Program-made: the position numbers and the translations under genes
In this document: piece by piece, positions 2,313 through 34,330 of the stretch
How positions within the stretch are numbered: the stretch's first letter is position 1
Layout: every line of letters begins with the position of its first letter
Notes under the pieces: generated by a model
What the model was told of the DNA's origin: nothing
What the model saw: the letters and a program-made list of their open reading frames with translations, nothing else
Databases searched by the model: none
Assembly (NCBI GenBank): GCA_947624785.1
Contig: CANQLV010000003.1
Coordinates: 186,001-250,000 of the forward strand
From: Akkermansia muciniphila
GTDB taxonomy: Bacteria > Verrucomicrobiota > Verrucomicrobiia > Verrucomicrobiales > Akkermansiaceae
DNA length: 64,000 nt
Direction: 5' to 3'

Positions 2313-3059
2313 TCAGTTTTTTGTACAGTTCCCTTCTTCCACTGCGGAGCCAAACCGATAACGGAACAACGAATCCATGACGCGAGCCCGGTTTGCTTTT
2401 GGAATATGGGGAGGACGAGGGCTTCCCACGGTTACGACGTCAAACCCAACATATTTTTCCGGAGCGACCGAGATGCTGAACCAGTTCCATGCCGACCAGC
2501 GGCCGGCCCTGTTTTGGGGCGTCCACGGGGGGATGATTTTCCCCTTGTCGATCCCAAAAAGGTCAATGACCGTGTGTCCGATGGTAAGGTCCTCCGGGGC
2601 GTTGTCCGGCATATCTGCTTGCATCAGCACTTCCGCGGCTCGTTTGGCGGCCAGTCCGGTCATGGCATAACACAAACCGTAGAATCGCCGGCTATCTGCT
2701 CCCGAGGCGCACCAGTGCGCCCCCGTTTCAGGCATGTCCCTGATCCATGCTCCGTTGAGCAGCGCCGTATCCGAGTCGATTTTGACGACGATGTCGTCGT
2801 CCGCTGCTTCGCCGGCCAGCATGGAGATAATGCCACGGACGCATTCCGGGCCGTTGAGATTACCATTTCGGGGAAAGTCCGTCCGCTTATACCGCACTCC
2901 AGTCGCCAGAAGCGCCTTTCTGGCGCGTTCCGGTACTGGGTCGGCTTCATCGTCTGCCACGGTAATGACGGCTTCAGGGAGGGCCGCCGCAGCGCATTGG
3001 ACGCAGGCTAGCGCTTCGTCCGCGTCTCCGGCGTAGGTGAAGAGATAGATTCGGATCAT
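2313..3059 (-). CDS. Phage-encoded GT-A-like glycosyltransferase
   Basis: 248 aa. The pattern IVVKIDSDTALLN contains a DxD metal/nucleotide-sugar motif near residue 97, and the N-terminal IYLFTYAGDADEAL stretch resembles the start of a Rossmann-like GT-A fold. Start overlaps the stop of the upstream tail gene by 4 nt (ATGA), so it is translationally coupled to the tail module and is the last gene before attL. Such genes in phages can modify virion proteins, DNA or host surface sugars; which applies here cannot be told. No signal peptide or membrane segment seen. Confidence 0.55.
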   Translation of the reverse strand: MIRIYLFTYAGDADEALACVQCAAAALPEAVITVADDEADPVPERARKALLATGVRYKRTDFPRNGNLNGPECVRGIISMLAGEAADDDIVVKIDSDTALLNGAWIRDMPETGAHWCASGADSRRFYGLCYAMTGLAAKRAAEVLMQADMPDNAPEDLTIGHTVIDLFGIDKGKIIPPWTPQNRAGRWSAWNWFSISVAPEKYVGFDVVTVGSPRPPHIPKANRARVMDSLFRYRFGSAVEEGNCTKN

Positions 3060-5233
3060 GACGGGCCGTAGGGGTAGAAGGTTCCGCCGGCAACCGGGAT
3101 TTGCACGGAGCCCAGCAGGTATTGCGTAACTTGGTCTTCGTCGATGTCGGCAATCTGGAAGGTATAGTCAAAGTTGACACCGGGTTTTTCCGTAGCGAGG
3201 ATGATAGGGTAAACCGTTCCTGGGATGCCTGACATTTCCACGCCAGTTAGCTTGGCGTCCTGGTCGAAGTGCACGTTCATCCAGACCTCGCCGCTGGTCA
3301 TCGGGAGTTTTACCCAGGAGGAACCGGATCCGGTTCCTCCGGTCGGGTAGAGTCCCAAGAAGGAGCCGTTGATGTAGAGGGCGCCGGGCTTGATGCGGGC
3401 ATCCGTTATGTTGCCATTCGTGTCTTTGGTCAGGCGCACCTGGAAGCCGTATTCCGGCGCAGGAGCTTCAGACCCGGTGGCGGTGGTGATCTGCTGGCTA
3501 ATGGTCGGAGATTCCGGCTTGGGGTCGTAGGTCAGTTCGACGGGTTCCGGCGCTCCCTGCATGTTTTCGAGCGTGGAGGAAATGTTAGAAACGGAATTAA
3601 TTTCATTGAGCGAAAGCAAATCTTCAACCCCAAGTTGATTTGGCGCACCGTAGGACAGGGAAATCACGTTGGTCTGCAGGTCGCGGCTCACTGTTTGAAT
3701 CATGGTGTTGATGTTCTGCCAAGCGGGGTTGCCTCCCAGCAGCGAGACGCGCCGGCCCATGTATTGGCGCGTCTGCGCTTCTCCAAGCGCGACAAAGGAA
3801 ATAGACCCGTCATAGGGGAGTTCCTGCATGGATTCCCATACCGTCATTGCCACGTCCGAATAAGGTATGCCATCATTGGGCGCTTCAGATGGGCCGTCCT
3901 CGTCATTGGACGGCTGCTCGCCGTTGTAAATGCCGTCGATTGGGTAGCTGGTATTGGGGCGGTCAATCGTCACCAGGTCCACAGAAAATTCCTGCCAGAA
4001 GCATGGAGTGTTGCCGCTCCCTATTTCCCCGATGTTCTTGAATTTTTCTCTCCACTTGGCCGGGGCGTTTTCCGGAATGGCCAGCCGCTGCTTGATAGTG
4101 GTATTGCACCATTTAGGCCGCAAGGATTTCGTATGGATCTGTCCATCCGTGAGTTCATACCCGGTGGCCGTAGTGTCGTAGCCCTTGGGCTTTTCCTCTT
4201 CCGCCCCTTCCCATTCCTTGGGAGTGACGACCCGGTCGGAATAGGGGACAAGCTGCCCCGCCGGGATGTCTTTCATCCACGGGAAATGGTGCGCCCAAAA
4301 GCTGTTGATCATGTCGCTGGCGTCAATTCTGCGTCCTTTGACAATCATCTTCTGGTAGGCCAGACTTCCGGAGCTGGGAGTCTTTACGGGCTGAGGCTCG
4401 GAAGCGGAACCACCGGATTCGTTGTAGTCCGAATAGTAAAAATCGGAAGAAACGCGGTAGATAATCGAATGAGGTAGCGTGGGATCGCCGTCCGCCGGAT
4501 ACTTGGAAAGGTAGGAGACTCGATAGCCATAGCTTCCGGTTGACTCTGCCACAATCGCAACACAGGGGGGGACAAGGTCGCCTCGCGCCACCAGTGAAAC
4601 TTCCATGCTTTTAACGGTGGCGGAGGGCTGCAGCGGCAAGGAAATAGGCTCAAGGGAATCGTAGTCCGTAATAATGAGTTTCGGTTTCTCCCCCGTATAG
4701 TCATAATAACTGACCATGCGCGGAGACCAGCGCCGGATGGACTGCAACAGGCTTTCCAGTGTGTCGCAGGATGCGTTCCAAGGTATCAGCTGCTTGTCAT
4801 TGCTGATGCGCAGCTCATAAGTGGCTGGATGGTGGTTTGCCATGGAGAGCACGGTGGACAAAGCGCCGCTCAATCTGACCTTAGGGATGATGCCATCACC
4901 ACCCAGTCGCGGAAGGAGCCTGAATGTCGGCTGCCATCCGTTGTTCAGGGCGTAGCAATTGGCGAGGTAATACCAAGGGTCTGAAAAGACGATTCTCCAA
5001 GACCGCTGACTGCCGCTGTATACTTTTTCAATGTTTGATACCAACCCCACTAGGAGGACTTGCCCGTTTTGGGATATGGTGACGGTGTCAAATTGCTTGT
5101 ACGGTAAAGTTTCTCCAAGCGTCCTGACGGGGTAAATGGCTGTGATGGTGGACGTAGAAAAACTTTGCTGGTCGTGTGTGAGGCTCGAAGGTTTGAGAGC
5201 CAGTAAGTCGTCTATGGTGATGTTGTGATTCCT
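3056..5233 (-). CDS. Large tail structural protein, AGG start
   Basis: 725 aa from AGG at 5233-5231. The frame has an in-frame TAA at 5242-5240 and no ATG, GTG or TTG until a GTG at 5050, which would remove 61 residues of convincing coding sequence (NHNITIDDLLALKPSS...). The AGG lies one base after the stop of the preceding gene. It reads as tail tip or baseplate protein: downstream of the tape measure, with a glycine/serine hinge (GGTGSGSSWVKL) near the end. Transcribed with the tail genes and coupled to the following glycosyltransferase gene. One of eight late genes of this phage with AGG at the expected start. Confidence 0.78.
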   Translation of the reverse strand, partial: RNHNITIDDLLALKPSSLTHDQQSFSTSTITAIYPVRTLGETLPYKQFDTVTISQNGQVLLVGLVSNIEKVYSGSQRSWRIVFSDPWYYLANCYALNNGWQPTFRLLPRLGGDGIIPKVRLSGALSTVLSMANHHPATYELRISNDKQLIPWNASCDTLESLLQSIRRWSPRMVSYYDYTGEKPKLIITDYDSLEPISLPLQPSATVKSMEVSLVARGDLVPPCVAIVAESTGSYGYRVSYLSKYPADGDPTLPHSIIYRVSSDFYYSDYNESGGSASEPQPVKTPSSGSLAYQKMIVKGRRIDASDMINSFWAHHFPWMKDIPAGQLVPYSDRVVTPKEWEGAEEEKPKGYDTTATGYELTDGQIHTKSLRPKWCNTTIKQRLAIPENAPAKWREKFKNIGEIGSGNTPCFWQEFSVDLVTIDRPNTSYPIDGIYNGEQPSNDEDGPSEAPNDGIPYSDVAMTVWESMQELPYDGSISFVALGEAQTRQYMGRRVSLLGGNPAWQNINTMIQTVSRDLQTNVISLSYGAPNQLGVEDLLSLNEINSVSNISSTLENMQGAPEPVELTYDPKPESPTISQQITTATGSEAPAPEYGFQVRLTKDTNGNITDARIKPGALYINGSFLGLYPTGGTGSGSSWVKLPMTSGEVWMNVHFDQDAKLTGVEMSGIPGTVYPIILATEKPGVNFDYTFQIADIDEDQVTQYLLGSVQIPVAGGTFYPYGPS

Positions 5234-5234
5234 G

Positions 5235-5687
5235 CTACTTTATAGTTTGGTTGTTGGCTATATCGGAAAGGAGTTCCACTACACGAACCATCCAGAAACA
5301 AGAGACAGCCGCCAAAATGCCAGAGGCTAAAAAGATGGACCCTGAAATTATTTCTTGTTCCTTGATGCTTAAAATAAAAAGAATGGTACCTCCTATCAAA
5401 GCAAACATGCCAATAATCTTGAGAACGACAGATATTCCTCCTGGAGGTTTGCTTTCTTGGTCTTGAATGGCCATAGGAGAGTTAGGTAGTTCAGTTTTGC
5501 GAAACTGAGATTGCAATGATGCCAAAGAAAAAAGAAGTTCGCTGTATGGCGCCCACTGAACTGTCCCTTCCTTGCAAACGAGGGTTTCTCCTGTAATTTT
5601 TTTCTGATTGCGAAGAATTTCTAAGGCATCCAATGAATAAGGCCCTTTTGTTTCTCCTTCTGGCGAAGAAATATAATACTGTTCCAT
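5235..5687 (-). CDS. GYF_2 (DUF4339)-like membrane protein A
   Basis: 150 aa from ATG 5687. N-terminal ~60 residues match the GYF_2/DUF4339 pattern (YYISSPEGETKGPYSLDALEIL...GTVQWAPYSELLFS), followed by two hydrophobic segments at about residues 85-105 and 112-132. Same architecture as its upstream neighbour, so the two are paralogues. Base composition is clearly more AT-rich than the late genes around it. Its stop is one base before the AGG start of the next tail gene. Probably accessory cargo expressed from the prophage; function unknown. Confidence 0.7.
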   Translation of the reverse strand: MEQYYISSPEGETKGPYSLDALEILRNQKKITGETLVCKEGTVQWAPYSELLFSLASLQSQFRKTELPNSPMAIQDQESKPPGGISVVLKIIGMFALIGGTILFILSIKEQEIISGSIFLASGILAAVSCFWMVRVVELLSDIANNQTIK

Positions 5688-5704
5688 GATTTGTATGTTT
5701 TTAT

Positions 5705-6109
5705 TTATTTTTTGGCAAGTAAAATATAAAGCGTGTACCAAAGTACAGCCACTACGGCACCTCCCAGAATATAACCCATTCCAATACCAATTAATCCTGC
5801 TCCAAAACTTACAATCCCCATAATGAAGCCCCCTCCTATCGATAGGGTTGCGAGAAATATAAGGACTGCGGAAAGAAAAGAATTACTTTCTTTGCGATTT
5901 GGAAGTTTCTTAATAGAATAAGTTGTAGAATTGCTTTCCCTTGGCAATTCTACAGAAAATAGTAATTCATCAACCTTGAACCATTTCTTTGTTCCTTCTA
6001 CGCAAATTAATGTTTCAGGTTCTATGACATGATTTTTAATTAAAATTTGTAGTTGCCTGAATGATATGGGGCCTTTGACAAGATTCCCGCAGAAGTAGAA
6101 ATATTTCAT
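5705..6109 (-). CDS. GYF_2 (DUF4339)-like membrane protein B
   Basis: 134 aa from ATG 6109 (MKYFYFCGNLVKGP). N-terminal GYF_2-like domain (GPISFRQLQILIKN...GTKKWFKVDELLFS) and two C-terminal membrane segments, paralogous to the next gene downstream. AT-rich like that gene and like most of the tape measure gene beside it, so the pair probably arrived together with that segment. Membrane localisation is inferred from the hydrophobic stretches; function unknown. Confidence 0.68.
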   Translation of the reverse strand: MKYFYFCGNLVKGPISFRQLQILIKNHVIEPETLICVEGTKKWFKVDELLFSVELPRESNSTTYSIKKLPNRKESNSFLSAVLIFLATLSIGGGFIMGIVSFGAGLIGIGMGYILGGAVVAVLWYTLYILLAKK

Positions 6110-6139
6110 GGCAACATCATATATCATGATAATTTTTCT

Positions 6140-7990
6140 TCAATGTTTTCTGCGCCGTAATCCTTCGATATTATTCTGAGCTTGTTTTAGATCGCGGGTC
6201 AACTGGTCAATTCGCGCCTGCTGATCTCTTAATTCTGCCGCTTGCTGATTAACAAGGGAAAGAGATTGTTTCATATTTGTGCTCAGTCCGTTCAGAATTG
6301 CATTGTTTCGAATTCCTTGCTGTCTCAAAGCGTCTCTAAAGGCAACTCCGATTTGCTCATATTCTCTTGAGTCAATTACTCCATCTGCCGAGGCATTTTT
6401 AACCTGATCCCTAATCGCTTCCGAGGCAGCTCTAACCATTGCTTTTTGTTGTTCACTAGCAGACTCCCCAGCAGCAACAACTAAGCGCTCCAATTCAGCA
6501 GAAAAATTATCCTTCTTCTTCTTTAGAGCATCTTTTTTGGTTTCTATTTCTTTTTTTCTACCTTCGATTTCATTCTCCGTATCCTCTTTTTCTGTCTCTT
6601 CACGGATTTGTCTTCTCTCCTGAGCTTGAGACGTCCTACCGCGTTGTATATCAACAGCCGCTTCCGAGGCATTTTTTCTCTTTACATCAGCTAGCTTTCG
6701 CGTTGCTATTTCTTCATCATTTTTTGCTGATATTAAAGACTTTTCCGATTCTTCATATTCTTTTTCAAGAGTTTCTACGGTTTCAGTATAAGATTTATAG
6801 GCATTCAAATAACCTCCATCTCCAAAAGTCATATCACCCAAATTAAAGCCTTTATCCTGAAGAGCAATGTCACTTCTCTCTATATTTTCTTGAATATCAA
6901 ATATTTTTGTTCTTCTAGATTCTGCGTCGATAGGTCGGTATTTATCGAGCAACGCATACACCAATTTATTTGAAATTTCTTCCCCCTGCGCAAACTCATT
7001 AGCTGCATCATAAATAGATTTATCACTTACATTCCTATATCGTAATGCTCCAGAATCTCTTTCTTTATCTCTATATACTTTTAAAGCTTCGTATAAATCA
7101 TTTGTTAAAGATTTTCTCATTTCACTTAAAGAAACCTCTGATGCTCTCCTTTCTTCAAGAGACATTATATCATCAGAATTAGATTTTGCATTTTGGAATG
7201 ACGCTTGAGCTTCTCTTGCACCTCGAGCTGCATCAATTCTCTTATTGACCGCATCAGCCACGTCTATTTTTGCTAATTCTTCTCTCTCATTTCTCCTTCT
7301 AGCACGGCTATCTAATTCAACGCCTTCTAACAAGCGGGCTCTTCGACGCTCCGCCTCAGAGCCTTTTCCTAATTTCCCATTAGCAAAATCTTCTTCTACT
7401 TTCAGACGGGCAATCTCTGCTTCATCGTCATTAATTCCAGATTCTAAAGCAATCAACTCTTTACGATAATCCAAAGAGTATTTTAATGCGTCAGCTTCTT
7501 CTTTACGATAATCAGCTATTTTTTTTGCATTATCTATTGCTTCCCGCAATATTTGTTCATTGTCGTTTTGCCGAGAAATTTCATTAACTTCTTCTTTTAA
7601 TTTTTTGAATGCTTCTCTTTCTTCTTCAATGGCTTTAGCGAGCTCTTTGGATTTCGCCTCCGTGTTTCCCATCCACTCGTACAGCTTCGCCCCTGCGAGG
7701 ACTGCAAGAGACATCGCTCCGGCCAGGCCCGCCCCGCCGCCGAAGCCTATTACAAGGCCCGGAATATTGTTCAGGATGCCCTTGATGCCGTATTGCACGT
7801 CATCCATGAAATAGGCAACCTGAAGCATTCCCTGCCCCATGTTCTTGATGCTTTTGGTGGCGTTTTGGCTCCCTTTGCCCAATTGCTCCGTGGACTTGTT
7901 CAGGGAGTCAATTTTCTGCTTGGCTTCTTCTACTCCTTTTCCGTCCAGCGTGGACTTGAGCTTGATTTCGATTTCTTTCTTGGTGGCCAT
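6140..7990 (-). CDS. Tail tape measure protein (mosaic)
   Basis: 616 aa. N-terminal MATKKEIEIKLKSTLDGKGV is a typical tape-measure opening, followed by a hydrophobic glycine/alanine segment (about residues 70-105: GLVIGFGGGAGLAGAMSLAV) and ~480 residues of charged, heptad-rich coiled coil. It follows a small tail-assembly gene, the usual position. Base composition changes abruptly: the first ~110 codons (to about 7650) are GC-rich like the phage, the rest is AT-rich. Coiled-coil length would set tail length; this is short for a siphovirus. Confidence 0.85.
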   Translation of the reverse strand: MATKKEIEIKLKSTLDGKGVEEAKQKIDSLNKSTEQLGKGSQNATKSIKNMGQGMLQVAYFMDDVQYGIKGILNNIPGLVIGFGGGAGLAGAMSLAVLAGAKLYEWMGNTEAKSKELAKAIEEEREAFKKLKEEVNEISRQNDNEQILREAIDNAKKIADYRKEEADALKYSLDYRKELIALESGINDDEAEIARLKVEEDFANGKLGKGSEAERRRARLLEGVELDSRARRRNEREELAKIDVADAVNKRIDAARGAREAQASFQNAKSNSDDIMSLEERRASEVSLSEMRKSLTNDLYEALKVYRDKERDSGALRYRNVSDKSIYDAANEFAQGEEISNKLVYALLDKYRPIDAESRRTKIFDIQENIERSDIALQDKGFNLGDMTFGDGGYLNAYKSYTETVETLEKEYEESEKSLISAKNDEEIATRKLADVKRKNASEAAVDIQRGRTSQAQERRQIREETEKEDTENEIEGRKKEIETKKDALKKKKDNFSAELERLVVAAGESASEQQKAMVRAASEAIRDQVKNASADGVIDSREYEQIGVAFRDALRQQGIRNNAILNGLSTNMKQSLSLVNQQAAELRDQQARIDQLTRDLKQAQNNIEGLRRRKH

Positions 7991-8007
7991 GGTGGGATTG
8001 GTAAGGG

Positions 8008-8298
8008 TTATCGTTGAGTGTTGGCTTCTCCGAGGACGAAAGCGGGCAGTTTCCCATCCGCGAGGCTGGCGCGGGCGTCGTCCGCGCGTTTTTGGAAGTA
8101 TTCAAGCATCATCATATCGCGGAAGATGATGCTGAAGGCCGCGGAGGGATTGACGCCGGCTTCTCCGGCGGCGGCAAAGACGCTTTCCCGCAAGGCTCGC
8201 GTCGCCTGGTCCAGAGAGGGGTTCTTGAGGCAGGCTTCAGCGAATTCCGCAAAAAGCCGTTCCATTCCGTTTTCGGATTGATTGGATTGGTCAGTCAT
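8008..8298 (-). CDS. Small tail assembly protein (chaperone position)
   Basis: 96 aa, acidic and helical (MERLFAEFAEACLKN, AAFSIIFRDMMMLEYF). Sits directly upstream of the tape measure gene with a 17-nt gap, the conserved place for tail assembly chaperones. No recognisable motif; no slippery sequence for a frameshifted second product was found. Assignment rests on position and size. Confidence 0.5.
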   Translation of the reverse strand: MTDQSNQSENGMERLFAEFAEACLKNPSLDQATRALRESVFAAAGEAGVNPSAAFSIIFRDMMMLEYFQKRADDARASLADGKLPAFVLGEANTQR

Positions 8299-8325
8299 GA
8301 TTGGTGGTGTGTTAAAAAGGTGTTG

Positions 8326-9549: not shown

Positions 9550-9555
9550 GAGCGC

Positions 9556-10137
9556 TTACTGGTTGAGGTAATCCTTCACACCCTCTGCGATAGCTTCGGC
9601 GATGCGCCCCGGATGGTCCTTCATCAGAGCAGCATCCGCCGGGTTGGTGATGAATCCGCACTCGCACAGAACCCACGGGCAACGCGTTCTTTTCAGGACG
9701 GCGAGGCCTGGACGGGACTGAACGGTGTTCGCCCTGCCCGGAAGCAGACGAGCAAGAGGTCCGGCAATACAGACGGCAAGGCGGCTCCCCTTGGCGCTGC
9801 CGGGATAAAAACACACGTGAGCTCCGTGAGGTCTTGGATCTGGGGCAAAAATGAGTTCAGGACCGTCCTCTCCTTCAATCCTTTCTTCTTTGCTGGCACT
9901 GTCGCAATGCAGGGAAATCCCGAAGTCGTAGCCGCCCTCGTTGGCGGCGCGGATGGTAGCGTTCAGGTCGTCCGTGTTGCTCCGGGTTGGAAAGTCAATC
10001 ACATCCACCTGGGCGCCCAGCTTCCTGAGCATTGGCGCGAGGCATTCCGCGATCGTCACGGCGACGGCGTGTTCTTCAAGCCCGTTTCCACGGGCTCCTG
10101 TGTTGTTGGCATGTCCTATGTCGATGGCTATTTTCCT
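9556..10137 (-). CDS. N-acetylmuramoyl-L-alanine amidase (endolysin), AGG start
   Basis: 193 aa from AGG 10137-10135. Amidase_3 fold: AIDIGHANNTGARGNGLEEH supplies the first zinc-ligand His and Glu, later ISLHCDSAS and the catalytic Glu in VLCECGFITN. The first canonical codon in frame is a GTG at 10059, which would delete the first His and Glu and so an inactive enzyme. AGG lies 7 nt after a strong Shine-Dalgarno (AAGGAG, 10145-10150), exactly where an ATG belongs, and gives the normal opening of the family. This is the clearest proof that translation starts at AGG in this phage. Follows a holin-like gene in the lysis cassette. Confidence 0.9.
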   Translation of the reverse strand, partial: RKIAIDIGHANNTGARGNGLEEHAVAVTIAECLAPMLRKLGAQVDVIDFPTRSNTDDLNATIRAANEGGYDFGISLHCDSASKEERIEGEDGPELIFAPDPRPHGAHVCFYPGSAKGSRLAVCIAGPLARLLPGRANTVQSRPGLAVLKRTRCPWVLCECGFITNPADAALMKDHPGRIAEAIAEGVKDYLNQ

Positions 10138-10150
10138 GGGTATTCTCCTT
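10135..10150 (-). promoter_or_regulatory. Shine-Dalgarno plus AGG start codon of the endolysin
   Basis: Minus strand reads AAGGAG, 7 nt (AATACCC), AGG. The spacing is ideal and there is no alternative start at that distance, so this site decides the start. An in-frame TAA lies just upstream of the Shine-Dalgarno. Confidence 0.85.
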
Positions 10151-10203
10151 TAATTGATTGGTTATTAATATATATGAACTTGTAAGAAAAACTTTACAGC
10201 TGG

Positions 10204-10356
10204 TCAGCGTTCCGCGCATCGGAGGAATACAAGGCACGCAATGGGGAAACAGAACGCGGCAATGCCTGCCTCCGTGTCTCCGCACGCGGCAAAAACGCCG
10301 GCCATCACGCACCCCGTCAGCGGCAAAAGAACGGAAGGATTCAGCAGCTTATTCAC
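10204..10356 (-). CDS. Holin-like small membrane protein
   Basis: 50 aa. GTG start overlaps the stop of the upstream gene (GTGA, 10353-10356). Two hydrophobic segments (VLLPLTGCVMAGVFAAC and AGIAAFCFPIACLVFL) separated by a short acidic turn, ending RCAER. Located directly before the amidase gene, the usual holin place. Too short for standard ORF cut-offs. Holin identity is inferred from size, topology and context. Confidence 0.6.
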   Translation of the reverse strand: MNKLLNPSVLLPLTGCVMAGVFAACGDTEAGIAAFCFPIACLVFLRCAER

Positions 10357-10604: not shown

Positions 10605-10606
10605 GG

Positions 10607-11074: not shown

Positions 11075-11086
11075 TTGATTATGTTG

Positions 11087-11491: not shown

Positions 11492-11495
11492 GGCG

Positions 11496-13613
11496 TTATT
11501 GCGCTAATTGGTTGATTTCTACAACGGCGGCCGCGGCGTAATGGTGGCCGACAAACGCCCACACCTGCCGGGGTTGTCCAGTCGTATTGGCTGCCAGCGT
11601 CAGGACAACCTGGCCGCCGGACTCCATTTCTTCAGAGGATTGCGTGCACCACACGGCAGAGGGATCATGTCCGCACATGGTATCGTTCAGCACATAGATA
11701 GTTTCGGAGAGAGCGGAAGACGCCGTCAATGTCACGTCGCCGCCCGAGGCCGGCACTTCCTGCGCAGAAGCCGTTACTTCCGGAACCGGCTTAGGCGTCA
11801 CACCCTTCATTACCGTATCCTTCATGATGCCCCATGAATTGTTCATGCCCAGTGAGGGCGCGTTGTCTATCCTCATGCCTCCCATCCGAAGGCCCGCCTG
11901 ATAAGTCCCGCTGACTTCATGCGCCTTGAATTTGGTTGTAAGGCATGCTGTGTTGCCGGATCCCAAAAAGGAAGATCCCATATCCATTACATATTGCTTG
12001 TCCACAAATAACGCCCAGCGATTGTAAATCTCCTGATCATTGGGGGCGGGTGGCGTTATGGCTGCGGAGATGTAGGTAAAAGCCGGAGTCAGTGCCCAAA
12101 CATAATGAGAGTCTGCCTTGAGAGGTCCATAAAAAGTTCCCCTTATCAAGGCTGACTTATTGCTCCCAAGATACCCCATGGGGTAAGTAGTGACCTGATA
12201 CGCCGGTACATTGTCACCCCCTCTTGCTCCATTGATTGTATTGTTTTGCGGGTATCTGTAATTGGCATTATCCCAGGCATAATCCACCCAGTGCACAGGA
12301 TGTACATAGCAGGACGCCATCGGATCGGTCGTCGTAGCGTACCCCTGAGAAGTGCTGCCCAAAAGGACCGACACCTTGTCAGAGCCAAGTATCCGCCAGA
12401 CGCAAGCGGCGGCATAATCGTTATTTCTGTTGTTGCCCATGTAATTGGCAAATTTCCATGATCCCGTGGATTCGCCGATAATAGAAACACCCGCCGCCGA
12501 CGTCATGGTTAACACCATATCGCACAAGTCGTTATTAAATACCCCCTTCTTTAAGGAGGCGTTAGCGGTAGCAATTTTGTAGCTTGTGCTCAATGCCTGG
12601 GAGTCCGTCAAGGCAGTCACCCAGGACGGAACGACGGTTTCCAGGAAATAGTTGGTGCGGTCCCATTGGTCCGCAGCCGTCGCCCTTACCACCCCCTCAT
12701 AGGAAATAGCATCCTGCCCTGTAACGGGCAACGGTACACGGACTCCTGCGGTTGCGGTGATCGTGGCCTCATAGGTCTGTGGTTGCGTCCAGTTATAAGA
12801 CCCGTCCGGATTCACATCCCCGGTATCTCCTTTCTCGCCCTGGGGGCCTTGGGGCCCCTCTGGCCCCTCGGGTCCTTGTGGGCCGACAGGCCCCTGCGGT
12901 CCGATTTCTCCAATGTCGCCTTTTGGTCCCTGCTCTCCGGTGGCTCCCTGGGGTCCTTGAGGGCCTGCGTCGCCCCTGGGCCCCTGGGGGCCTTGCGGGC
13001 CGGTTTCGCCTGGTTCCCCCTGCGGGCCTTCCGGGCCTTCGGGGCCGACGTCTCCTTTGGGAATGGTAAACGACAACAGATAAGAGCCCGCTTCCGAACC
13101 TTTCACAGCTTCCGCTGCAGCAGGAGTGCCAGGCTCGCCGGTAGTGACCCGGTCCACCGAAAGATTGAAATTCTCGGCGTACTTCTTGGCCTGCTCCGCG
13201 TACCAGGCGGCGCTTGACGTGTTATCAAGAACGACCTGAACGCATCCGCTTCCTTCCGGCAGTTGCACGACGACCGCACCCGCCACGGCCTGCTGTTCGT
13301 CCGGTAAGTCAGGCGTCACCCGGCCTGAAGAAACAAAGCATCCGTAGAGCAGCGGGCTTTCCTCGGTCCCATCGTCCATGAAGACGTCATAGGACCACAT
13401 TCCCGCGGGTACTGAGGCCCACGAAATCACGCAGTTGCCCTCGTCGTCATGGGAGAATCCGAACTCAGTCACGCCCGTCTTAAGGCGCACGGCTCCGCGC
13501 AGAGTGATTCCGCTCATATCGACGGGATCTCCCTGGAAATCCACCACGCGCACCACCAAAGACTGGTTCAGTCCCGTGACCGTCCGGATGTCATATTTGC
13601 CTGCCTGTTGCCT
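11496..13613 (-). CDS. Collagen-like tail fibre / receptor-binding protein, AGG start
   Basis: 705 aa from AGG 13613-13611. The first canonical codon is a TTG at 13559; 18 well-behaved codons precede it ([18 protein letters not shown]). N-terminus resembles phage baseplate upper proteins ([21 protein letters not shown]). About residues 187-266 are Gly-X-Y collagen repeats (~26 triplets), then a Trp-rich globular head, then a C-terminal Ig-like ~90-residue domain ([20 protein letters not shown]...). The head and C-terminus are strongly similar to an orphan host-side gene at 45851-47419. Preceded by a terminator-like hairpin. Confidence 0.85.
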
Positions 13614-13623
13614 GCAGCGGAAG

Positions 13624-13653: not shown

Positions 13654-13666
13654 TTGGGTTGGTATG

Positions 13667-14314
13667 TCAGGAAACGGTCGTCGTCACATCCTGAATATTG
13701 GACGGTGTGGCCTGGTACTGACCCTTATAATCCATCTCAAATTCAAACTGCGCGGACGCCACCGCGGTTGTGTGTTCCGGGTCCTGCAGGAGACGCAAGG
13801 CGCCATGCCCGATGTAGGTGAGGAATATCTCGCCAATATCGTTCTGGTACCACAGTTGCAGGTATCCCTCTATTTTATTGTCTCCGCCGTGCCCGATGGC
13901 GACGGCCTCCTTGCCGTTGGCCGGAGCGCCTCCCAGCGCAAAGGAGAGCTGGAAGTATTCCGGGGACATATCCGGCGTCGTGAAGGTCATGCGCTTGCCG
14001 GTAGTGGTGTTCTTGCGCTGGACGCGGTAGCCCAGAGCTCCACCGTAGAAGCGGGTGACTTCTCCTTCGACCTGCGTGGCGACGGACTGGAACGCTCCCA
14101 GCAAGCCAAAGCTCACCCAGGGGAATGCCGGGCCGGCCGTCGGATCAACGGGGGGCGCGGCAGGAGGTTCCGGGAACTGATAGGGTCCGGTAACGTAGGA
14201 GGCGCCGCCTTCCTCGGTCACCTTGATACCGTCAGGGAGGAAAATCGCCAGGACACCCGTAATCTGCGGAGTCACATTGCGATTGCTGTAAGTGGGGTCG
14301 TAAGTATTAGGCCT
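13667..14314 (-). CDS. Tail tube / major tail protein candidate, AGG start
   Basis: 215 aa from AGG 14314-14312, 15 nt after the upstream stop. In-frame TAA six codons upstream of AGG; the first canonical codon is a GTG at 14275 inside the conserved-looking run NTYDPTYSNRNVTPQITG. Mid-size, single-domain, beta-rich, at the position between connector genes and fibre where the tube protein is expected. No signature motif, so the function is inferred from order. Confidence 0.6.
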   Translation of the reverse strand, partial: RPNTYDPTYSNRNVTPQITGVLAIFLPDGIKVTEEGGASYVTGPYQFPEPPAAPPVDPTAGPAFPWVSFGLLGAFQSVATQVEGEVTRFYGGALGYRVQRKNTTTGKRMTFTTPDMSPEYFQLSFALGGAPANGKEAVAIGHGGDNKIEGYLQLWYQNDIGEIFLTYIGHGALRLLQDPEHTTAVASAQFEFEMDYKGQYQATPSNIQDVTTTVS

Positions 14315-14329
14315 GATGCTTGAACGGGT

Positions 14330-17009: not shown

Positions 17010-17482
17010 CGGTAGGTGCTTCGCATGGGGTTAAACCAGGGACGCCGCGTATAGCGCGGCATCATGTAGGCGGGATCCGCTGGGGCGGAGCCGTCTACGC
17101 TTTCCGGCAGCATTTCCCCGTGTGCATAGTGAGCCAACATCTCATCAGCCGATTCGGCGGCCTTCTGGCGCGTCTCAGTCAGGTTGATTTGATAGCGCAG
17201 GTAAAGCTGCCGGATGATCAGCGGCCACGCCAGGGAGCGCATGCTCTGCGGGATGTCGTACATGCCGCTGTTCTGGAGCGATTGCCGCAGGGCGAGGTTG
17301 TTGGCCAGTGCCCCGCGGATGGTCATGCAGACATCATTGACGGCCTCCACCATGACGTCCCGGTAGTCCAGGCTGCGCTGCTCCCCGGCTGTCACCAGGG
17401 CGTTACGTTCCGCTGTGTTGAGGCCGAGCAGTCGGTCGGCCTCATCCGTGGTAATCGTGGACCATGCGGGAAAGGCAGGCAT
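17006..17482 (-). CDS. Head-tail connector protein (DUF1320 / Mu gp36-like)
   Basis: 158 aa. MPAFPAWSTITTDEADRLLG start, then helical bundle (RDVMVEAVNDVCMTIRGAL, SLAWPLIIRQLYLRYQINLT), as in DUF1320 connector proteins. 22 nt after the capsid stop, ATG start. Binds under the portal in related phages. Confidence 0.6.
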   Translation of the reverse strand: MPAFPAWSTITTDEADRLLGLNTAERNALVTAGEQRSLDYRDVMVEAVNDVCMTIRGALANNLALRQSLQNSGMYDIPQSMRSLAWPLIIRQLYLRYQINLTETRQKAAESADEMLAHYAHGEMLPESVDGSAPADPAYMMPRYTRRPWFNPMRSTYR

Positions 17483-17504
17483 GATGGAGGCGGGTTGGTG
17501 TGGG

Positions 17505-18428
17505 TTAGGCGGAAGCCGTCGCGTCGATACGGACGATGGCGGACGGGTTGGTCAGCTTGGTCAGCGAGTAGACGCGGTTGGTTACCAACGTCAGAGCGGG
17601 CGTCGGCTTGTATTCCGTAATGACCTCGCGACGGAGCTTGCCGGATAAGCCAAACGTTTTGATGGCAGAGGCGTCGAACTGCGTCGGGGAGTCTTCTTTG
17701 TACAGGACATAGACTTCGTTTTCCATGATGGTCTTGGCGTCGCCGGAAGCGTCGCGGTAGGGCATGGAGGCGATGTAGATGTCCCTGATGGGGCGAATCA
17801 AAGCATTGCGGAGCAAATCTTCGTTGAAGAGGCCGACGCTGTTGAACGACACCACCTGACGGGCGATGGGGTTGGCTCGTAGAAGCTGCCAGGCGTTGAT
17901 GCCGAAGACGATGGTGTTCGGCATATGTCCGGTAGCTGCGTTGATGGACAGGATGGCCTTGTCCAAGTCTGCCAGCGGGTTTTTCTGTTCGTTGGCCCAA
18001 TCGCCCATTCCGGAAGCTGCCGGAAGCTGGCTCATGATCATCTTGGCTCGTTCATACTCATAAGAGGTTACAAACTGGGATTCGATGAGTTTGTATTCCG
18101 CCAGGGTGATGGCCTGCGCCTTTTCCCGGTTGACGCCCAGCAACGCGTCCGGGATGGGCAGCGTCAGTCCGTAGCCCCGGAGGGTATCGGTTTCGTTTCT
18201 GCCGTTCAGGACAGTCTGGCGGGGAGGTTCGCCCGCTCCAACTTCAATGGGCTGGACGGTGAAGGCCGATTCGGTGTCCCAGACCTTGTACTGGAAATTC
18301 AAGTCGTAAACCGGGACGATCGGCGCGATGCGGCTGATGATGGAGTTCTCTTCGGTGTTCCCGGAGCCCGCTGAATAGGCGGTCAGGACATCGGTGAACT
18401 GAACGGCGGAGCAAAATGGAGTAGCCCT
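17505..18428 (-). CDS. Major capsid protein, AGG start
   Basis: 307 aa from AGG 18428-18426 (then ATPFCSAVQFTDVLTAYSAG). An in-frame TAA lies at 18452-18450 and the first canonical codon is a TTG at 18302, 42 codons into the protein; no ATG, GTG, TTG or ATN codon is available near the N-terminus. AGG is the only start consistent with the fold. Body reads as a HK97-like capsid: E-loop-like N-terminus, KVWDTESAFTVQP, long central helix region, C-terminal TNRVYSLTKLTNPSA. Placed after protease and decoration genes as expected. Confidence 0.85.
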   Translation of the reverse strand, partial: RATPFCSAVQFTDVLTAYSAGSGNTEENSIISRIAPIVPVYDLNFQYKVWDTESAFTVQPIEVGAGEPPRQTVLNGRNETDTLRGYGLTLPIPDALLGVNREKAQAITLAEYKLIESQFVTSYEYERAKMIMSQLPAASGMGDWANEQKNPLADLDKAILSINAATGHMPNTIVFGINAWQLLRANPIARQVVSFNSVGLFNEDLLRNALIRPIRDIYIASMPYRDASGDAKTIMENEVYVLYKEDSPTQFDASAIKTFGLSGKLRREVITEYKPTPALTLVTNRVYSLTKLTNPSAIVRIDATASA

Positions 18429-18465
18429 TGTTCTTGGTCTTTCTGTTGGTTATTAAGGGTTGATA

Positions 18466-18894
18466 TTATGCGGTAGCCTGGTAGGAGGGCACGAAGCCGA
18501 TTTCCACGAGGCCCTGTTCCCACTGGGCGTGAATTACGCGGGCATAGACGGTTTCACCGCTGGCGGCGGCCTTCCATGCCCCGTTGGCCGTAATGGTGAG
18601 GGGCGTTCCGGCATTGATGGTGCCGGGCGTGTCGGACAGCGCCGCCTTGATCAGGCCGGAATACATTCCGACGAGGGCGGCGACGCAGGTTCCCTGGTTG
18701 GGCTGCCCTTGCAGGACCACGCCGAGCAGCTGCGTCTGCGTGGGGATAGCGGACAACGGCGTCCCGATAAACTCGGGAATGTCCGGGTTGGCGGTCAGCG
18801 CCACGACGGTTCCTTCCTGTCCGCACAGGTCAACTCCCTCTGGGGTGTTGAAATAGACGATGGCGCTTTTCTGGGTTACATTGAGTGATGGCAT
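18466..18894 (-). CDS. Capsid decoration / head stabilisation protein
   Basis: 142 aa, beta-rich, glycine/threonine-rich (ALTANPDIPEFIGTPL, GTPLTITANGAWKAAASGETV), the pattern of gpD-like decoration proteins, and sits between protease and major capsid. ATG start 20 nt after the protease stop. Confidence 0.65.
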   Translation of the reverse strand: MPSLNVTQKSAIVYFNTPEGVDLCGQEGTVVALTANPDIPEFIGTPLSAIPTQTQLLGVVLQGQPNQGTCVAALVGMYSGLIKAALSDTPGTINAGTPLTITANGAWKAAASGETVYARVIHAQWEQGLVEIGFVPSYQATA

Positions 18895-18914
18895 TGGTTT
18901 GTATCAGGTTGGGA

Positions 18915-20036
18915 TTATTGTGCAGAGGTTACAATGAAGCCTTCTTCAGTGGCTTTCTGGAAGGCGTCGTAGCGCTTCATACCTCCTTTGATCAGTTCGT
19001 CTACGCGATTCTGGAATCCGTCGATGGATTCCTTCTTGCGGAACGGATTGGGCGGCGCCTGGGTAGCGCGGCGGTTCAAGGACGTTCTTCCGGCTGGGTT
19101 TCGGCGGCTTTCGTCAATAACGTCATGCGGCGGCTTTGACTTCGCGGACCGATTGAGAGCCTTAACAAAGGCGTTCAGCGCGGCGGGGCTTTCCCGGAGT
19201 GAGTTTTTCAGCTCTTCCCGGCGTTCTTCCGTGAATTCCTTGCGTTCTTCCTCGTCGAGCGCGTTTTCGTACGTGCTGACGGCGTCGTCCACTTCGGCGT
19301 TCACGTGGTCTTTCTCACGCTTTTCCAGCGAGAGCAGTTCGTCAAGTCGTCCGAGGATCTCCCTGCTCATGTCGTCGGTGCCGTCAAATTCGACATCCAG
19401 CTTATCAAGCAGGGAATCGAACAGGGCCCGCTGGGCCTTGTCCATTTCCTTGGACGGATATTCTCTATCGTCGTTTTCCATATTGGTTTCTGGGTTGGGT
19501 TCCCCCTGTTCGGGGCTTTGTGGTTCGCCCCCGGCCTCGTTGGAGGCGGGGGAAGTCTGTCGGTTGACCAGCGGCCGCTTGCCCTTGATGCGGGGCCGGT
19601 TGGTCAGGGCAAAGCCTGTCAGCTTGCCGGGGTGGTAAATGCCGTCCTCGAATGTCATGCCTTCGCCGTATTCGGTCGAAGATTGCGTGTATTCTTTGTC
19701 CTTCAGCATCTGCTGGCCGCGCGGCGTCCACTCGATGAAGCCGTACAGCTCTAACGCGCCGGAAGGATCGCGGTAGGTGTCCAGCCGCTTGAGCCATCCG
19801 AGAGCGCGAGTGTCGCGTGAAAGGTCATGGCTCAAGTGGTCGCCGTCAATGAGCATGCCGGGCCCGTCAAAGGTGCGGGAGTTGAATTCGTCCACCATGG
19901 ACTTGATCGCCTGCTCGTCGATGCGGAGCACCGCGGGTCCCTCACCGTAGTCTACCTCATGATCCCCGCTTTTCTCGACGTGGAACCATCCGTTGGCGGG
20001 ATTGGACAAGTCATTGATTTGTTTGGTACTGATCAT
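18915..20036 (-). CDS. Prohead protease fused to scaffold (Mu gpI-like)
   Basis: 373 aa. N-terminal ~160 residues resemble gpI-type prohead proteases: PGMLIDGDHLSHD (histidine region) and YTQSSTEYGEG (serine region). Residues ~165-330 are acidic, glutamate-rich and helical as in a scaffold, ending with a basic C-terminus that may anchor to capsid. ATG start overlaps the portal stop by 26 nt, so it can be reached by coupled translation without its own AGG. Confidence 0.75.
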   Translation of the reverse strand: MISTKQINDLSNPANGWFHVEKSGDHEVDYGEGPAVLRIDEQAIKSMVDEFNSRTFDGPGMLIDGDHLSHDLSRDTRALGWLKRLDTYRDPSGALELYGFIEWTPRGQQMLKDKEYTQSSTEYGEGMTFEDGIYHPGKLTGFALTNRPRIKGKRPLVNRQTSPASNEAGGEPQSPEQGEPNPETNMENDDREYPSKEMDKAQRALFDSLLDKLDVEFDGTDDMSREILGRLDELLSLEKREKDHVNAEVDDAVSTYENALDEEERKEFTEERREELKNSLRESPAALNAFVKALNRSAKSKPPHDVIDESRRNPAGRTSLNRRATQAPPNPFRKKESIDGFQNRVDELIKGGMKRYDAFQKATEEGFIVTSAQ

Positions 20037-21375
20037 CGCTAAATCCTTTCATGAGCCCGGTATAAATGAGCTGCTGCAGCTGTTCGTAGGCGTCGGGCGG
20101 GATGCGCGAGCCTTCCGTTTCCCGGTTGACGGCAGCCGCCGCGGGAGCGGCTGCCGTCGCATCCTCGATGGACATGCCTATCTTTTCTTCGATTTCGGTC
20201 TTCTCGGGGCGGACGCCTCCGTCCGCGAGGGCGGCGATTTCCTCGGCCTTCTGTAGCGGTGTTTGGACGGTGTCAAAGGTGATGTGGAGCCGGGCCAGCG
20301 GCTCTCCGTCTCCCAGCACCAGTGGACTGATGGAGGCGTTAAAGGCTTCCGCCACCTTGGAGCAGACGGCGGAGACCACCGAGTTCCAGCTGTCCGTATG
20401 GGCGGACCCCGCCAGCGTGCCGGAGCCCGATTCGTTCAGGACGGTCAAGGTTCCCGCCATCACAAACCGCACCTGGTCCTTGTCAGCCATATTGATGCGG
20501 GAGAGGAAGTAGTTTTCGTTGATGGATGAGGCTTTGAGAGGTTCGGCCGTACATTCGGGAGGCAGGACGACGGAAGCGCCAGACTTGAGCTCCTCGCAGG
20601 CGCGTTCAAGGGCGTCCATGATAGCAGCGCTTGCTTTTGGCGGGGCTGTGATGATGGCCGGGGCGCTCCCGTAGCGGTCCATATGATTGTCCCAGGTTAT
20701 TTTCGCATGATTCCGCTCAAAACTCGCGCGAGCTGCCGGGAACAGGATGGGATAACGGTGCTCCATCACGACGAGCGTTTCGCCTTCCACGCTTTCGCCT
20801 GTGTCAACGCCAATGTAGCACTGGGGATTGAACTGCCATTCGTTCAGTTCTCCGGGCCGTACCCAGTAACGCTGCGGGATGAATTCAAACCTCCGACCCC
20901 AGGCGTCCTCAATGTATTGGAGGTGGGCATAGCCGTAAAACAGGGCGGAGGCCAGATGCCCGAAAGCCTGTTGTAGCCCGTTGACGGAATTGTAGAATTC
21001 CTCCAAGGCGTTTTTTTGACGCTGCGCTTCCTGGCTGTCGTTGGCGGCGTCAATCTTCCAGCCCTGCATGGAGACGCTTTCAACCATGCGTGAATAGAGC
21101 ATGCCCAGGAGGCCGTCAGAATAAATGATTTCATCCCAGATGAGCATCTGACGGGCAAAGGCTCCACGCCGTGCTTCGTTTCTAGCTTCAACGAGTGTTT
21201 GCAGGTCGGCACCCTGTAACGGATCCCAGTATTCGTACCATTGAGGCTGGTTAGGCTTCCGGCTTTGTTCCGTCAAGACTCGCCGGGCGAGATCCGTTTC
21301 AAGCTCCTTGATTCTGGTCTCCTGTTGGGCGACCAGCTTCGGGGCGTTGAGGATATTTTTGACGGCGTTAAACCT
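20011..21375 (-). CDS. Portal protein (DUF935-like), AGG start
   Basis: 454 aa from AGG 21375-21373, just 23 nt after the 3' end of the initiator tRNA. Residues 2-34 (FNAVKNILNAPKLVAQQETR...) form a typical portal N-terminus; the first canonical codon, a TTG at 21276, would lose them. Body matches gp29-like portals: YEYWDPLQGADLQ, AFARQMLIWDEIIYSD, LLGMLYSRMVESVSMQGWKI. The tRNA and portal probably share a transcript from the promoter at 21489-21517. Confidence 0.85.
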   Translation of the reverse strand, partial: RFNAVKNILNAPKLVAQQETRIKELETDLARRVLTEQSRKPNQPQWYEYWDPLQGADLQTLVEARNEARRGAFARQMLIWDEIIYSDGLLGMLYSRMVESVSMQGWKIDAANDSQEAQRQKNALEEFYNSVNGLQQAFGHLASALFYGYAHLQYIEDAWGRRFEFIPQRYWVRPGELNEWQFNPQCYIGVDTGESVEGETLVVMEHRYPILFPAARASFERNHAKITWDNHMDRYGSAPAIITAPPKASAAIMDALERACEELKSGASVVLPPECTAEPLKASSINENYFLSRINMADKDQVRFVMAGTLTVLNESGSGTLAGSAHTDSWNSVVSAVCSKVAEAFNASISPLVLGDGEPLARLHITFDTVQTPLQKAEEIAALADGGVRPEKTEIEEKIGMSIEDATAAAPAAAAVNRETEGSRIPPDAYEQLQQLIYTGLMKGFSDDQYQTNQ

Positions 21376-21398
21376 GCGGAGAGGAGATAGGAAAATTT

Positions 21399-21472
21399 TG
21401 GTTGCAGGGGGAGGAGTTGGACCTCCGACATGAGGACAGGAACCTCATATGATACCGTTTCACCACCCTGCG
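21399..21472 (-). tRNA. Phage initiator-type tRNA with anticodon CCU (reads AGG)
   Basis: 74 nt with encoded CCA. Seen: acceptor CGCAGGG / CCCTGCA with a mismatched C1 x A72 and six good pairs; discriminator A; TG; D stem GTGA/TCAT, loop AACGGTA; anticodon stem TGAGG/CCTCA; loop TTCCTGT giving anticodon CCT (21440-21438); 4-nt variable loop; T stem GGAGG/CCTCC, loop TCCAACT. The C1 x A72 mismatch and ACCA end are hallmarks of bacterial initiators, and the start and end closely resemble E. coli tRNA-fMet. The foot of the anticodon stem is A-U, G-C, G-C (usual: three G-C). Departures: 11:24 is U-A (initiators R-Y) and T-loop position 55 is C. Its anticodon matches the AGG found at eight late-gene starts. 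Charging enzyme unknown; the CCU anticodon argues against MetRS and could attract ArgRS. Confidence 0.9.
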
Positions 21473-21480
21473 GTTGAATA

Positions 21481-21517
21481 TACATCAACACATATAGATA
21501 TGTTGATGTATTGTCAA
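21481..21517 (-). promoter_or_regulatory. Promoter and palindromic operator of the initiator tRNA
   Basis: Minus strand: -35 TTGACA (21517-21512), 17-nt spacer, -10 TATGTG (21494-21489), tRNA 5' end at 21472. A perfect inverted repeat, TACATCAACA (21481-21490) and TGTTGATGTA (21501-21510), covers spacer and -10, so a dimeric repressor bound there would shut the tRNA off. The -35 begins 3 nt after the large terminase stop. Control by a repressor is inferred; its identity is unknown. Confidence 0.7.
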
Positions 21518-21519
21518 TC

Positions 21520-22893
21520 CTAATATCTGCCGATGGCGCGTTTTTGTGCTGGGCGTCTGGCATACCACGCTCCAAGCTCCTTGGACAATCCGCTGTGCCG
21601 GCGCGCGTGCCAGGCCATGACGAGTGCATCGGCACGGTCTGGAGAACGGACGCCGCGCTTCGCCATGTCTTCCTTGCTTTCTATTCTGACGCGGCCAATC
21701 GCGTCTGTCTGGAGGCGGGGAGCAACCAGCTGCTCAATGGTGTCCTCGTCGATGTCAAGGATGAGTTCTTTTTCTTCAATGGCGCGGGCCAGGGCCCGCC
21801 ATGCCTGGGCGCGGAGGTTGACAAAGGCTTGTGTGTCATCCGCTGGGAATCCTCCCCGGTAGGAGTGTACCGGAAAGCCCTCGGCGCGGAAATCGTCAAT
21901 GATGGGGAGTCCAAGTCCGTCGCCGTCGGCAAAGATGCGGTCGGCGGAGATGCCAAGCTCGGTAGCCTTGCGGCGGAACCTTCCGCGCGCTCCTACGGTG
22001 TCCGGGTCGGCCCAGTGGTCGGCGATGAAAAAACGGTTGCCCTGCCCGGCCGCGAAGACGTTCTCATCACCCCCGGCGGCAAAGTCGAAGCCGCCGCAGG
22101 TCTCCCCGGTGTCCAGGAAGGGGGGCGGGTTGTTGACCAACTCCATGAGGGAGCGCCGGGAAATGACGGATTGTCCGTCAAGGTCGGTGAATTCCCCGAG
22201 GATTGCGGAACGATAAAAGGAGGATTGCTCGCCGTATTCTTTTTTCAGTCGTTCGGCCTTCCCCGGGTCGTTAATCTCGATATGCGGGCAATCCTCGTAT
22301 TTGACGCGGATTTTGTAGTAGAGGGATGAATTTTTGTGAAAGCAGTCGTAAAAGGTGCCTGAATCGGCCCCAGGCGACGAGGTGATGAACGCATGGAAAA
22401 GCGTGCAGCGGGAAACAGAGGTGAAGATGGAGTCGGGAATGGTCTTGGCCTCGTCCAGGACGTAAAAAACAGGATCCACGTCGGGCGAGATTTTCGGGTG
22501 CCATCCTTCCGCGCGTCCGGCGTTGTCGGTCGAGAATCCCACGGCAAAGCCTCCCTCCGGCGTGCGGATTTCGGTTTTGTTGAACGTCCAACCCGAAAAG
22601 AATGGATTGTCCATGTAGCGGCGAAGCGCCGGGAAGAGCTGCTTTTCCACCTGCATCCACGACGAGGACGTAACCGGAACCTGTCCCCGTGGAAAGCATG
22701 TGAGAAAGTACAGGATGGCTGGCGCAATACAGTTGCTTGTCTTGCCCGATCCGTTGGGAGCCACGAGGGCGACGCTTTTCCCTCCCAGGGTCAGCTTGCC
22801 CAGGGATAACGCCTTGATGGCCTCCACCTGCCAGGGATAGGGATCGAGGCGGAGGACATGGCGGAGGAAGAAGCTGACGGGAAGTCGTGTCCT
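21520..22893 (-). CDS. Large terminase subunit, AGG start
   Basis: 457 aa from AGG 22893-22891 (then TRLPVSFFLRHVLRLDPYPW). The frame contains the small terminase TAA three codons upstream; the first canonical codon, a GTG at 22827, falls after the DPYPWQ adenine-binding Q-motif. Walker A VALVAPNGSGKTS at ~residues 41-53, Walker B PVFYVLDEAK, C-terminal RNase H-like nuclease beginning CGGFDFAAGGDEN with further acidic residues (IFADGDGLG, SPDRADALVMA). ATP-driven DNA packaging motor. Confidence 0.9.
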   Translation of the reverse strand, partial: RTRLPVSFFLRHVLRLDPYPWQVEAIKALSLGKLTLGGKSVALVAPNGSGKTSNCIAPAILYFLTCFPRGQVPVTSSSWMQVEKQLFPALRRYMDNPFFSGWTFNKTEIRTPEGGFAVGFSTDNAGRAEGWHPKISPDVDPVFYVLDEAKTIPDSIFTSVSRCTLFHAFITSSPGADSGTFYDCFHKNSSLYYKIRVKYEDCPHIEINDPGKAERLKKEYGEQSSFYRSAILGEFTDLDGQSVISRRSLMELVNNPPPFLDTGETCGGFDFAAGGDENVFAAGQGNRFFIADHWADPDTVGARGRFRRKATELGISADRIFADGDGLGLPIIDDFRAEGFPVHSYRGGFPADDTQAFVNLRAQAWRALARAIEEKELILDIDEDTIEQLVAPRLQTDAIGRVRIESKEDMAKRGVRSPDRADALVMAWHARRHSGLSKELGAWYARRPAQKRAIGRY

Positions 22894-22899
22894 GACGGG

Positions 22900-23415
22900 T
22901 TAGGGATGGAGTTTGCCGGCGATAGTCTCTAGCGCAGTTTTCTCGTCTTCCTGCAGCTGGGCCATCTGCTCGGGGTCAAGAGTGATCTTGCGTTCCAGGG
23001 GAGCGCCGGGAACGCCCGCTACATCCTGCCGGACTCGGTCGCCGAATTTCTCCGGGGCGAAGCGGGCGGCCACTTTCAGCCGCGTTTCAATGGCGAGCTT
23101 CTTGGCTGCGACGGAGGCGGAGCCACATTCGGGGTCGAGGGCAACCTGGGCAGCGGCATCTGACAAAGACTGACACTCTTCTAGCATTGCTTCCGACTGC
23201 GCTTCCCTCGCGCGTTGAATGAGTTTACAAAACTCTTCCCGTTCGTGTCTCCATCTCCAGACAGTTAAAACCTCCGGCATGTGATCGTCCGAGCAAATGG
23301 ACTTCATCGTTTCCCCCGCGGCCAGCCTGGACGCTATCTCGGCAGCTAATGCCTCCGTATAGAGGCTGGGCCGTCCTATTTTCTTTTTGGTGGTAGGTGA
23401 TTGTTTCTTTTTCCT
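22900..23415 (-). CDS. Small terminase subunit, AGG start
   Basis: 171 aa from AGG 23415-23413. An in-frame TAA lies at 23424-23422 and the first canonical codon is an ATG at 23307. The 36 codons between encode a basic leader and the first helices of the DNA-binding domain (GRPSLYTEALAAEIASRLAA), continuing SICSDDHMPEVLTVWRW, a typical terminase small-subunit helix-turn-helix. C-terminal helical oligomerisation region, acidic end. First gene of the late operon; the large terminase start is 6 nt after its stop. Confidence 0.85.
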   Translation of the reverse strand, partial: RKKKQSPTTKKKIGRPSLYTEALAAEIASRLAAGETMKSICSDDHMPEVLTVWRWRHEREEFCKLIQRAREAQSEAMLEECQSLSDAAAQVALDPECGSASVAAKKLAIETRLKVAARFAPEKFGDRVRQDVAGVPGAPLERKITLDPEQMAQLQEDEKTALETIAGKLHP

Positions 23416-34324: not shown

Positions 34325-34330
34325 GCGAAC

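Follow-up and report, generated by a model that had tools for sequence, protein, structure and literature searches.

Bacterial start codons are taken to be AUG and its near-cognates, since a single initiator transfer RNA (tRNA), with anticodon CAU, reads them all. Phages that recode stop codons carry suppressor tRNAs that act in late genes, and a role in regulating lysis has been proposed for them. Here, we analyze a 64,000-nucleotide stretch of a genome of the gut bacterium Akkermansia muciniphila (assembly GCA_947624785.1, contig CANQLV010000003.1, positions 186,001 to 250,000; hereafter, the window), which contains a prophage with eight late genes that appear to start with AGG and, inside the same gene cluster, a tRNA gene with anticodon CCU. 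Like the stop-codon recoders, this prophage seems to alter the reading of its late genes with a tRNA of its own, but at initiation on a sense codon rather than during elongation at stops. We consider it very probable that the AGG starts are read by the phage tRNA(CCU). An earlier annotation made from the letters alone (the sequence-only reading) had recognized the AGG starts but had not seen the tRNA, which is their likely cause.

The same principle has been engineered in Escherichia coli, where UAG and GUC serve as starts for initiator tRNAs whose anticodons were altered (PMC2268962). There, an acceptor-stem mismatch is needed for formylation and three G:C pairs for binding to the P site (PMC2268962, PMC8576571). 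Orthogonal initiators engineered for UAG, GUC, or CAC starts, whether for E. coli or for cell-free use, share with the phage tRNA the combination of initiator features, a changed anticodon, and a matching non-AUG start (PMC2268962, PMC8576571, PMC13232202); unlike these man-made molecules, the phage tRNA occurs naturally, is conserved across a clade, and is linked to a group of late genes. In certain uncultivated Bacilli, AGG has been reassigned to Met (PMC8629427): their tRNA-CCU likewise has A73, G2:C71, C3:G70, and no A20, and AGG and ATG interchange there as they do in the phage clade. However, the Bacilli use AGG as Met throughout their proteins, whereas the phage clade would do so at starts only. 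Among the open-access matches listed, with few subscription papers covered, we recognized neither a natural phage initiator tRNA with an anticodon other than CAU nor bacterial AGG starts.

All eight genes lie on the minus strand with AGG at the upper coordinate, exactly where the sequence-only reading had placed their starts, and their frames are open and free of internal stops. They encode the terminase small subunit (TerS; 22900 to 23415; PF20901, 9.9e-28), the terminase large subunit (TerL; 21520 to 22893; phrog_2, 1e-24), a Mu-type portal protein (20011 to 21375; PF06074, 3.1e-31), the major capsid protein (MCP; 17505 to 18428; phrog_1005, 5.7e-20), a tail tube candidate (13667 to 14314; so named by the earlier annotation, with no Pfam or PHROG match), a collagen-repeat tail fiber (11496 to 13613; Pfam and PHROG scans), an Amidase_3 endolysin (9556 to 10137; PF01520, 1.2e-26; aaaggag precedes its AGG), and a tail protein (3056 to 5233; no Pfam or PHROG match). 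In this order, the first ATG, GTG, or TTG follows after 36, 22, 33, 42, 13, 18, 26, and 61 codons, precisely the distances claimed, and the in-frame stop upstream of AGG lies 3, 3, 24, 8, 6, 38, 5, and 3 codons away; stops are thus close by in most genes, as had been noted (within 8 codons in six of the eight). When the proteins are read from AGG, the Amidase_3 domain covers endolysin residues 3 to 188, beginning at profile position 1, and PF20901 covers TerS residues 19 to 130; starting at the first canonical codon would shorten both domains, in line with the earlier argument that canonical starts remove the zinc ligands of the amidase and the helix-turn-helix of the terminase. That annotation had also assigned ATG to translationally coupled late genes. 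Seventeen other late genes of the window have ATG, but this is not confined to coupled genes: those starting at 18894 and 17482 are separated from the gene before them by 20 and 22 nucleotides.

AGG is the sole codon common to all eight intervals between the upstream stop and the first canonical start, each time at offset 0, with one extra AGG in three of the eight. Random codon draws never put AGG in all eight intervals (0 of 20,000); however, some codon was common to all eight in 13,766 of 20,000 trials, which detracts from the weight of this count, and in the related phage L127 both AGG and ACC are present in all seven intervals tested. Because chance sharing of some codon is frequent, and because ACC is also shared in L127, the weight of the case for AGG starts rests on homology.

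Besides the window, the clade set comprises 11 records: Akkermansia phage DTMo-2021a (CP084202.1; L127) and 10 IMG/VR contigs (loci L031 to L037, L069 to L075, and L236), two of which share one genome number. Start positions were AGG in 60 and ATG in 6 of 66 gene-by-record cases, with no other codon; these counts include the window, have one row per record except for a tail gene duplicated on one contig, and are not independent events, as the records are closely related and some are nearly identical. AGG is invariant in TerS (9/9), the portal (8/8), the tube (7/7), the fiber (7/7), and the tail gene (9/9); in TerS, it is shifted inward relative to the ungapped position, by two codons in L031 to L035 and by one in L037. 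TerL and MCP each have AGG in 8 of 9 records, the exception in both being L037, which has ATG at the same codon in MCP and one codon further in for TerL. Endolysin starts are AGG in four of eight records and ATG, at the same codon, in the other four, and the upstream sequence aaaggagaat is kept in both kinds. The contig with the duplicated tail gene region (IMGVR_UViG_2850266918_000004, 55 kb; L069 and L070) perhaps carries two related prophages in tandem.

The segment bounded by AGG and the first canonical start codon showed 170/123/586 differences at codon positions 1/2/3 (4785 nucleotides, 55 gene-by-locus comparisons), whereas the 21 nucleotides upstream of AGG showed 149/166/136 by phase, that is, no coding pattern; TerS was excluded from this comparison because of indels, and some contigs were counted twice via overlapping loci. 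The phase pattern changes at AGG, and therefore coding begins there. Alignment of homologues had been proposed as a check, and a Met was found at the AGG position wherever this was testable (endolysin, MCP, and fiber). In 9 of 16 more distant endolysin loci, from other genomes of Akkermansia, the AGG position is occupied by ATG; 6 carry ATG one to six codons upstream, 1 has neither, and none has AGG at the position. The fiber relatives L084, L097, L098, L128 (Chambord), and L129 (Chantilly) have ATG at the exact AGG codon, and a tRNA of the CCU type was not found in these five. In distant MCP loci (n = 7; 23 to 28% identity), ATG lies three codons in (6/7) or one codon before (1/7). The TerS ATG of Chambord and Chantilly lies one codon in and their tail start (ATG, GTG) one codon before the AGG position; distant TerL relatives have varied canonical start codons.

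The tRNA gene (74 nucleotides; 21399 to 21472, minus strand; Rfam RF00005, 49.9 bits) lies between the TerL and portal genes and was named tRNA-Arg(CCU) by ARAGORN. It has a C1xA72 mismatch, A73, U20, an encoded CCA, and the anticodon stem 29-31/39-41 AGG/CCU; its anticodon, CCU in all variants, is complementary to AGG. The gene is present in all seven relatives in which the site is covered (L031 to L035, L037, and L127; L036 ends short of it). Together with the window copy, they comprise five distinct sequences, those of L031, L032, and L035 being identical, as are those of L033 and L034. All 20 stem pairs are kept across the five, seven of them with both sides changed, and C1 and A72, unpaired as is the hallmark of bacterial initiators, occur in every variant. 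Among 42 other distinct host tRNA sequences (one Leu sequence, which begins with G, was read without CCA), only the initiator Met(CAT), L030, has C1 and A72, and by alignment this initiator is the closest host tRNA to each of the five phage variants. The phage tRNA shares C1xA72, A73, CCA, U20, and a G-rich anticodon stem with bacterial tRNAfMet, including that of the host, and differs from it in having CCU and U11:A24, in having all three G:C pairs 29-31/39-41 in only three of five variants (L031 type, L037, and L127), and in being phage encoded. By its sequence it is classed as initiator-like rather than as a tRNAfMet, because its anticodon is CCU, not CAU.

ARAGORN found no such tRNA in Chambord (a partial genome) or Chantilly, nor in L077 to L105, most of which span only ∼4 kb. 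An IMG/VR scan with the exact tRNA core returned six contigs, all of this phage clade. Two wider pattern scans, limited to tRNAs fitting the patterns, returned 39 and 17 stretches; when ARAGORN was run on 56 loci (52 from the wider scans and 4 from the exact-core scan), the only CCT tRNAs with C1 and A72 were the 4 already known. At 0 or 1 mismatch, the tRNA core occurs in none of 259 other genomes of the host family. We also considered pairing of tRNA base 37 with the base before AGG (mostly C), which was unsupported: the same C precedes AGG where base 37 is A, in the L033-type tRNA.

The best reading is that of orthogonal initiation arisen in nature, by a tRNAi(CCU)/AGG system serving packaging, capsid, tail, and lysis genes, in which tRNAi(CCU) would start translation of the eight late genes at AGG; the claim of AGG initiation is to this extent supported, initiation itself being what we infer. 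Methionyl-tRNA synthetase of the host would charge the tRNA with Met (no A20; A73, G2:C71, C3:G70), the host formyltransferase would formylate it via C1xA72, and initiation factor 2 (IF2) and the 30S P site would accept it. Host enzymes would probably act in these steps, because neither a synthetase nor a formyltransferase was seen among the 27 window proteins scanned with Pfam, which cover part of the prophage; two host genes encode the formyl-transferase domain PF00551. Internal AGG would stay Arg, presumably decoded by ordinary host Arg tRNAs. AGG occurs in 84 of 5271 aligned codon columns (three or more sequences; matches with 55% identity or higher), and 4 of these mix it with ATG: the MCP start, the endolysin start, and two variable internal sites. 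A genome-wide AGG = Met code was rejected, as internal AGG does not fall at conserved Met positions and its aligned counterparts are chiefly Arg and Lys codons (CGC 111, CGG 105, AAG 40; ATG 7).

Since tRNA(CCU) would be required for the terminases, portal, capsid, tail, and endolysin, it could be a single trans-acting license for virion production, perhaps controlled via a palindrome in its promoter; this is the least certain step. The candidate promoter, with an imperfect palindrome as a possible operator, lies at 21473 to 21530 (minus strand; TTGACA was read directly). In aligned upstream regions its hexamer is TTGACA in seven of eight phages compared and TTTACA in L037; a consensus promoter scan gives another hexamer pair, TCAACA-18-TATATT. 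We infer only that a repressor may act there. Use of the tRNA as a switch is an evenly balanced proposition, and we give an even chance to the fuller proposal that AGG is a private codon, readable only by a phage fMet-type tRNAi(CCU), such that the entire virion program (head, packaging, tail, and lysis genes) would hinge on a single repressible tRNA gene.

Charging of tRNA(CCU) with Met rather than Arg seems probable. By the rule in PMC8629427, the tRNA is, on its sequence, Met-type and not Arg-type: A73, G2:C71, C3:G70, and the lack of A20 are common to all five variants. The host tRNA-Arg(CCT) has G1:C72, A20, and G73, and all four host Arg tRNAs examined carry A20, where the phage tRNA has U20. 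The phage tRNA might nevertheless initiate at AGG while charged with Arg, so that the proteins start with formyl-Arg, an outcome we regard as doubtful. Its anticodon holds C35 and U36, which E. coli arginyl-tRNA synthetase recognizes, and C35 should weaken recognition by methionyl-tRNA synthetase, making Arg or mixed charging possible. Moreover, engineered initiators with anticodons CUA and GAC receive Gln and Val in E. coli (PMC2268962). Against this, C35 is cited as the least critical anticodon change for methionyl-tRNA synthetase, the acceptor-end features match the Met rule for tRNA-CCU (PMC8629427), and the endolysin start alternates between AGG and ATG among relatives. A more conventional role, in which the tRNA supplements Arg elongation at AGG codons and the starts are decoded by other means, is very improbable. 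Elongator tRNAs are common in phages, and ARAGORN's name, tRNA-Arg(CCT), would fit, but the tRNA lacks the Arg-elongator features (1:72 is unpaired, and it has U20, not A20), AGG accounts for only 31 of 6806 non-start late codons, and the host already has tRNA-Arg(CCT) and tRNA-Arg(TCT).

We give just as little credence to the idea that AGG is incidental and that the eight genes start at downstream GTG, TTG, or ATG codons or are entered by frameshift or readthrough from upstream. Public gene calls would favor downstream starts in that 45 of 48 MCP database proteins begin at +29 or +62, with 2 at the AGG position (one of which, P0005, is apparently L037's own) and 1 at +1; for the endolysin, 11 of 120 listed proteins (361 found) begin at +35 and 96 at the AGG position. 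However, the coding constraint begins at AGG, the codon is ATG in relatives, downstream starts would truncate the amidase and TerS domains, and in-frame stops lie upstream. Gene callers appear to truncate AGG-start proteins; the public MCP entries (P0002 to P0046) mostly seem short by 29 or 62 residues, apparently from an unrecognized AGG start. Finally, a private initiator could serve as counter-defense against cleavage of the host initiator tRNA (VapC type) rather than as a lysis-lysogeny lock. The target of Shigella VapC is tRNA-fMet, and evasion of host tRNases has been suggested as a function of phage tRNAs (PMC12482277, PMC10264068), but the 17 ATG-started late genes of the window would stay blocked, and we find this explanation improbable.

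Other observations weigh against a Met-type tRNAi(CCU) that initiates at AGG and licenses the virion. The case is built from sequence and draws on the nonindependent clade records described above. U11:A24 is not initiator-like, and the window tRNA (A29:U41) and the L033 type (U31:G39) each lack one of the three G:C pairs. In E. coli, activity was clearly lower in mutants that had all three G:C pairs altered or G30:C40 flipped (PMC2268962). L037 keeps the tRNA yet has ATG in MCP and TerL, and the endolysin has ATG in half of the clade; dependence on AGG and the tRNA therefore varies by gene. The imperfect palindrome (window 21473 to 21517) occurs in three of four phage regions tested and is absent from L035; no second site was found elsewhere in the prophage, and other matches in L127 have 6 or 7 mismatches. 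A repressor switch thus has no support from a second site.

If tRNAi(CCU) does initiate at AGG, a second dedicated initiator would change the meaning of a sense codon at start positions only, without altering how it is read internally. Engineered orthogonal initiation would then have a counterpart in nature, and phage tRNAs would have a new role, possibly adding a layer of late-gene control; the truncated database entries of AGG-start proteins would also be explained.

The tRNA gene is also a target in the record of a clustered regularly interspaced short palindromic repeats (CRISPR) array in the same host (L150, contig C11; seven spacers). Spacer 5 is identical over 34/34 nucleotides to the tRNA gene of L031, L032, L035, and L127; the match is flanked by TTC in L031, L032, and L035 and by CTC in L127. 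The window copy has five mismatches to spacer 5 and the flank CAT, and its anticodon stem stays paired through double changes. This combination of a CRISPR match and compensated divergence suggests selection on the tRNA gene.

The host genome of the window is 3.08 Mb in 24 contigs. Its assignment to Akkermansia agrees with sequence comparison: two genomes placed in its genus (loci L085 and L088) have all three of the 200-mers tested in common with the named Akkermansia contigs L067 and L066. The prophage spans ∼32.2 kb (about 2256 to 34479), comparable to the 31,946 bp of phage DTMo-2021a, and has a 19-nucleotide repeat at both limits. The distal attachment repeat, AATCCCTCCCTGTCCGCCA (2256 to 2274, minus strand; read directly), is identical to positions 34461 to 34479 within the host tRNA-Ser(GGA) gene (34461 to 34550, minus strand), the integration site, which the integrase gene (33137 to 34528; PF00589 match) adjoins. 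Outside the prophage and adjoining the attachment site, a low-GC segment (47 to 2103) encodes a cytosine methylase, an HNH nuclease, and a Vsr mismatch endonuclease. Within the prophage, a long gene at 6140 to 7990 is a tape-measure candidate from its position alone (no Pfam match) and lies in a low-GC stretch whose flanks differ. Preceding the tail gene, at 5235 to 6127, are two adjacent small membrane-type proteins that look similar by eye and are poorly conserved among relatives.

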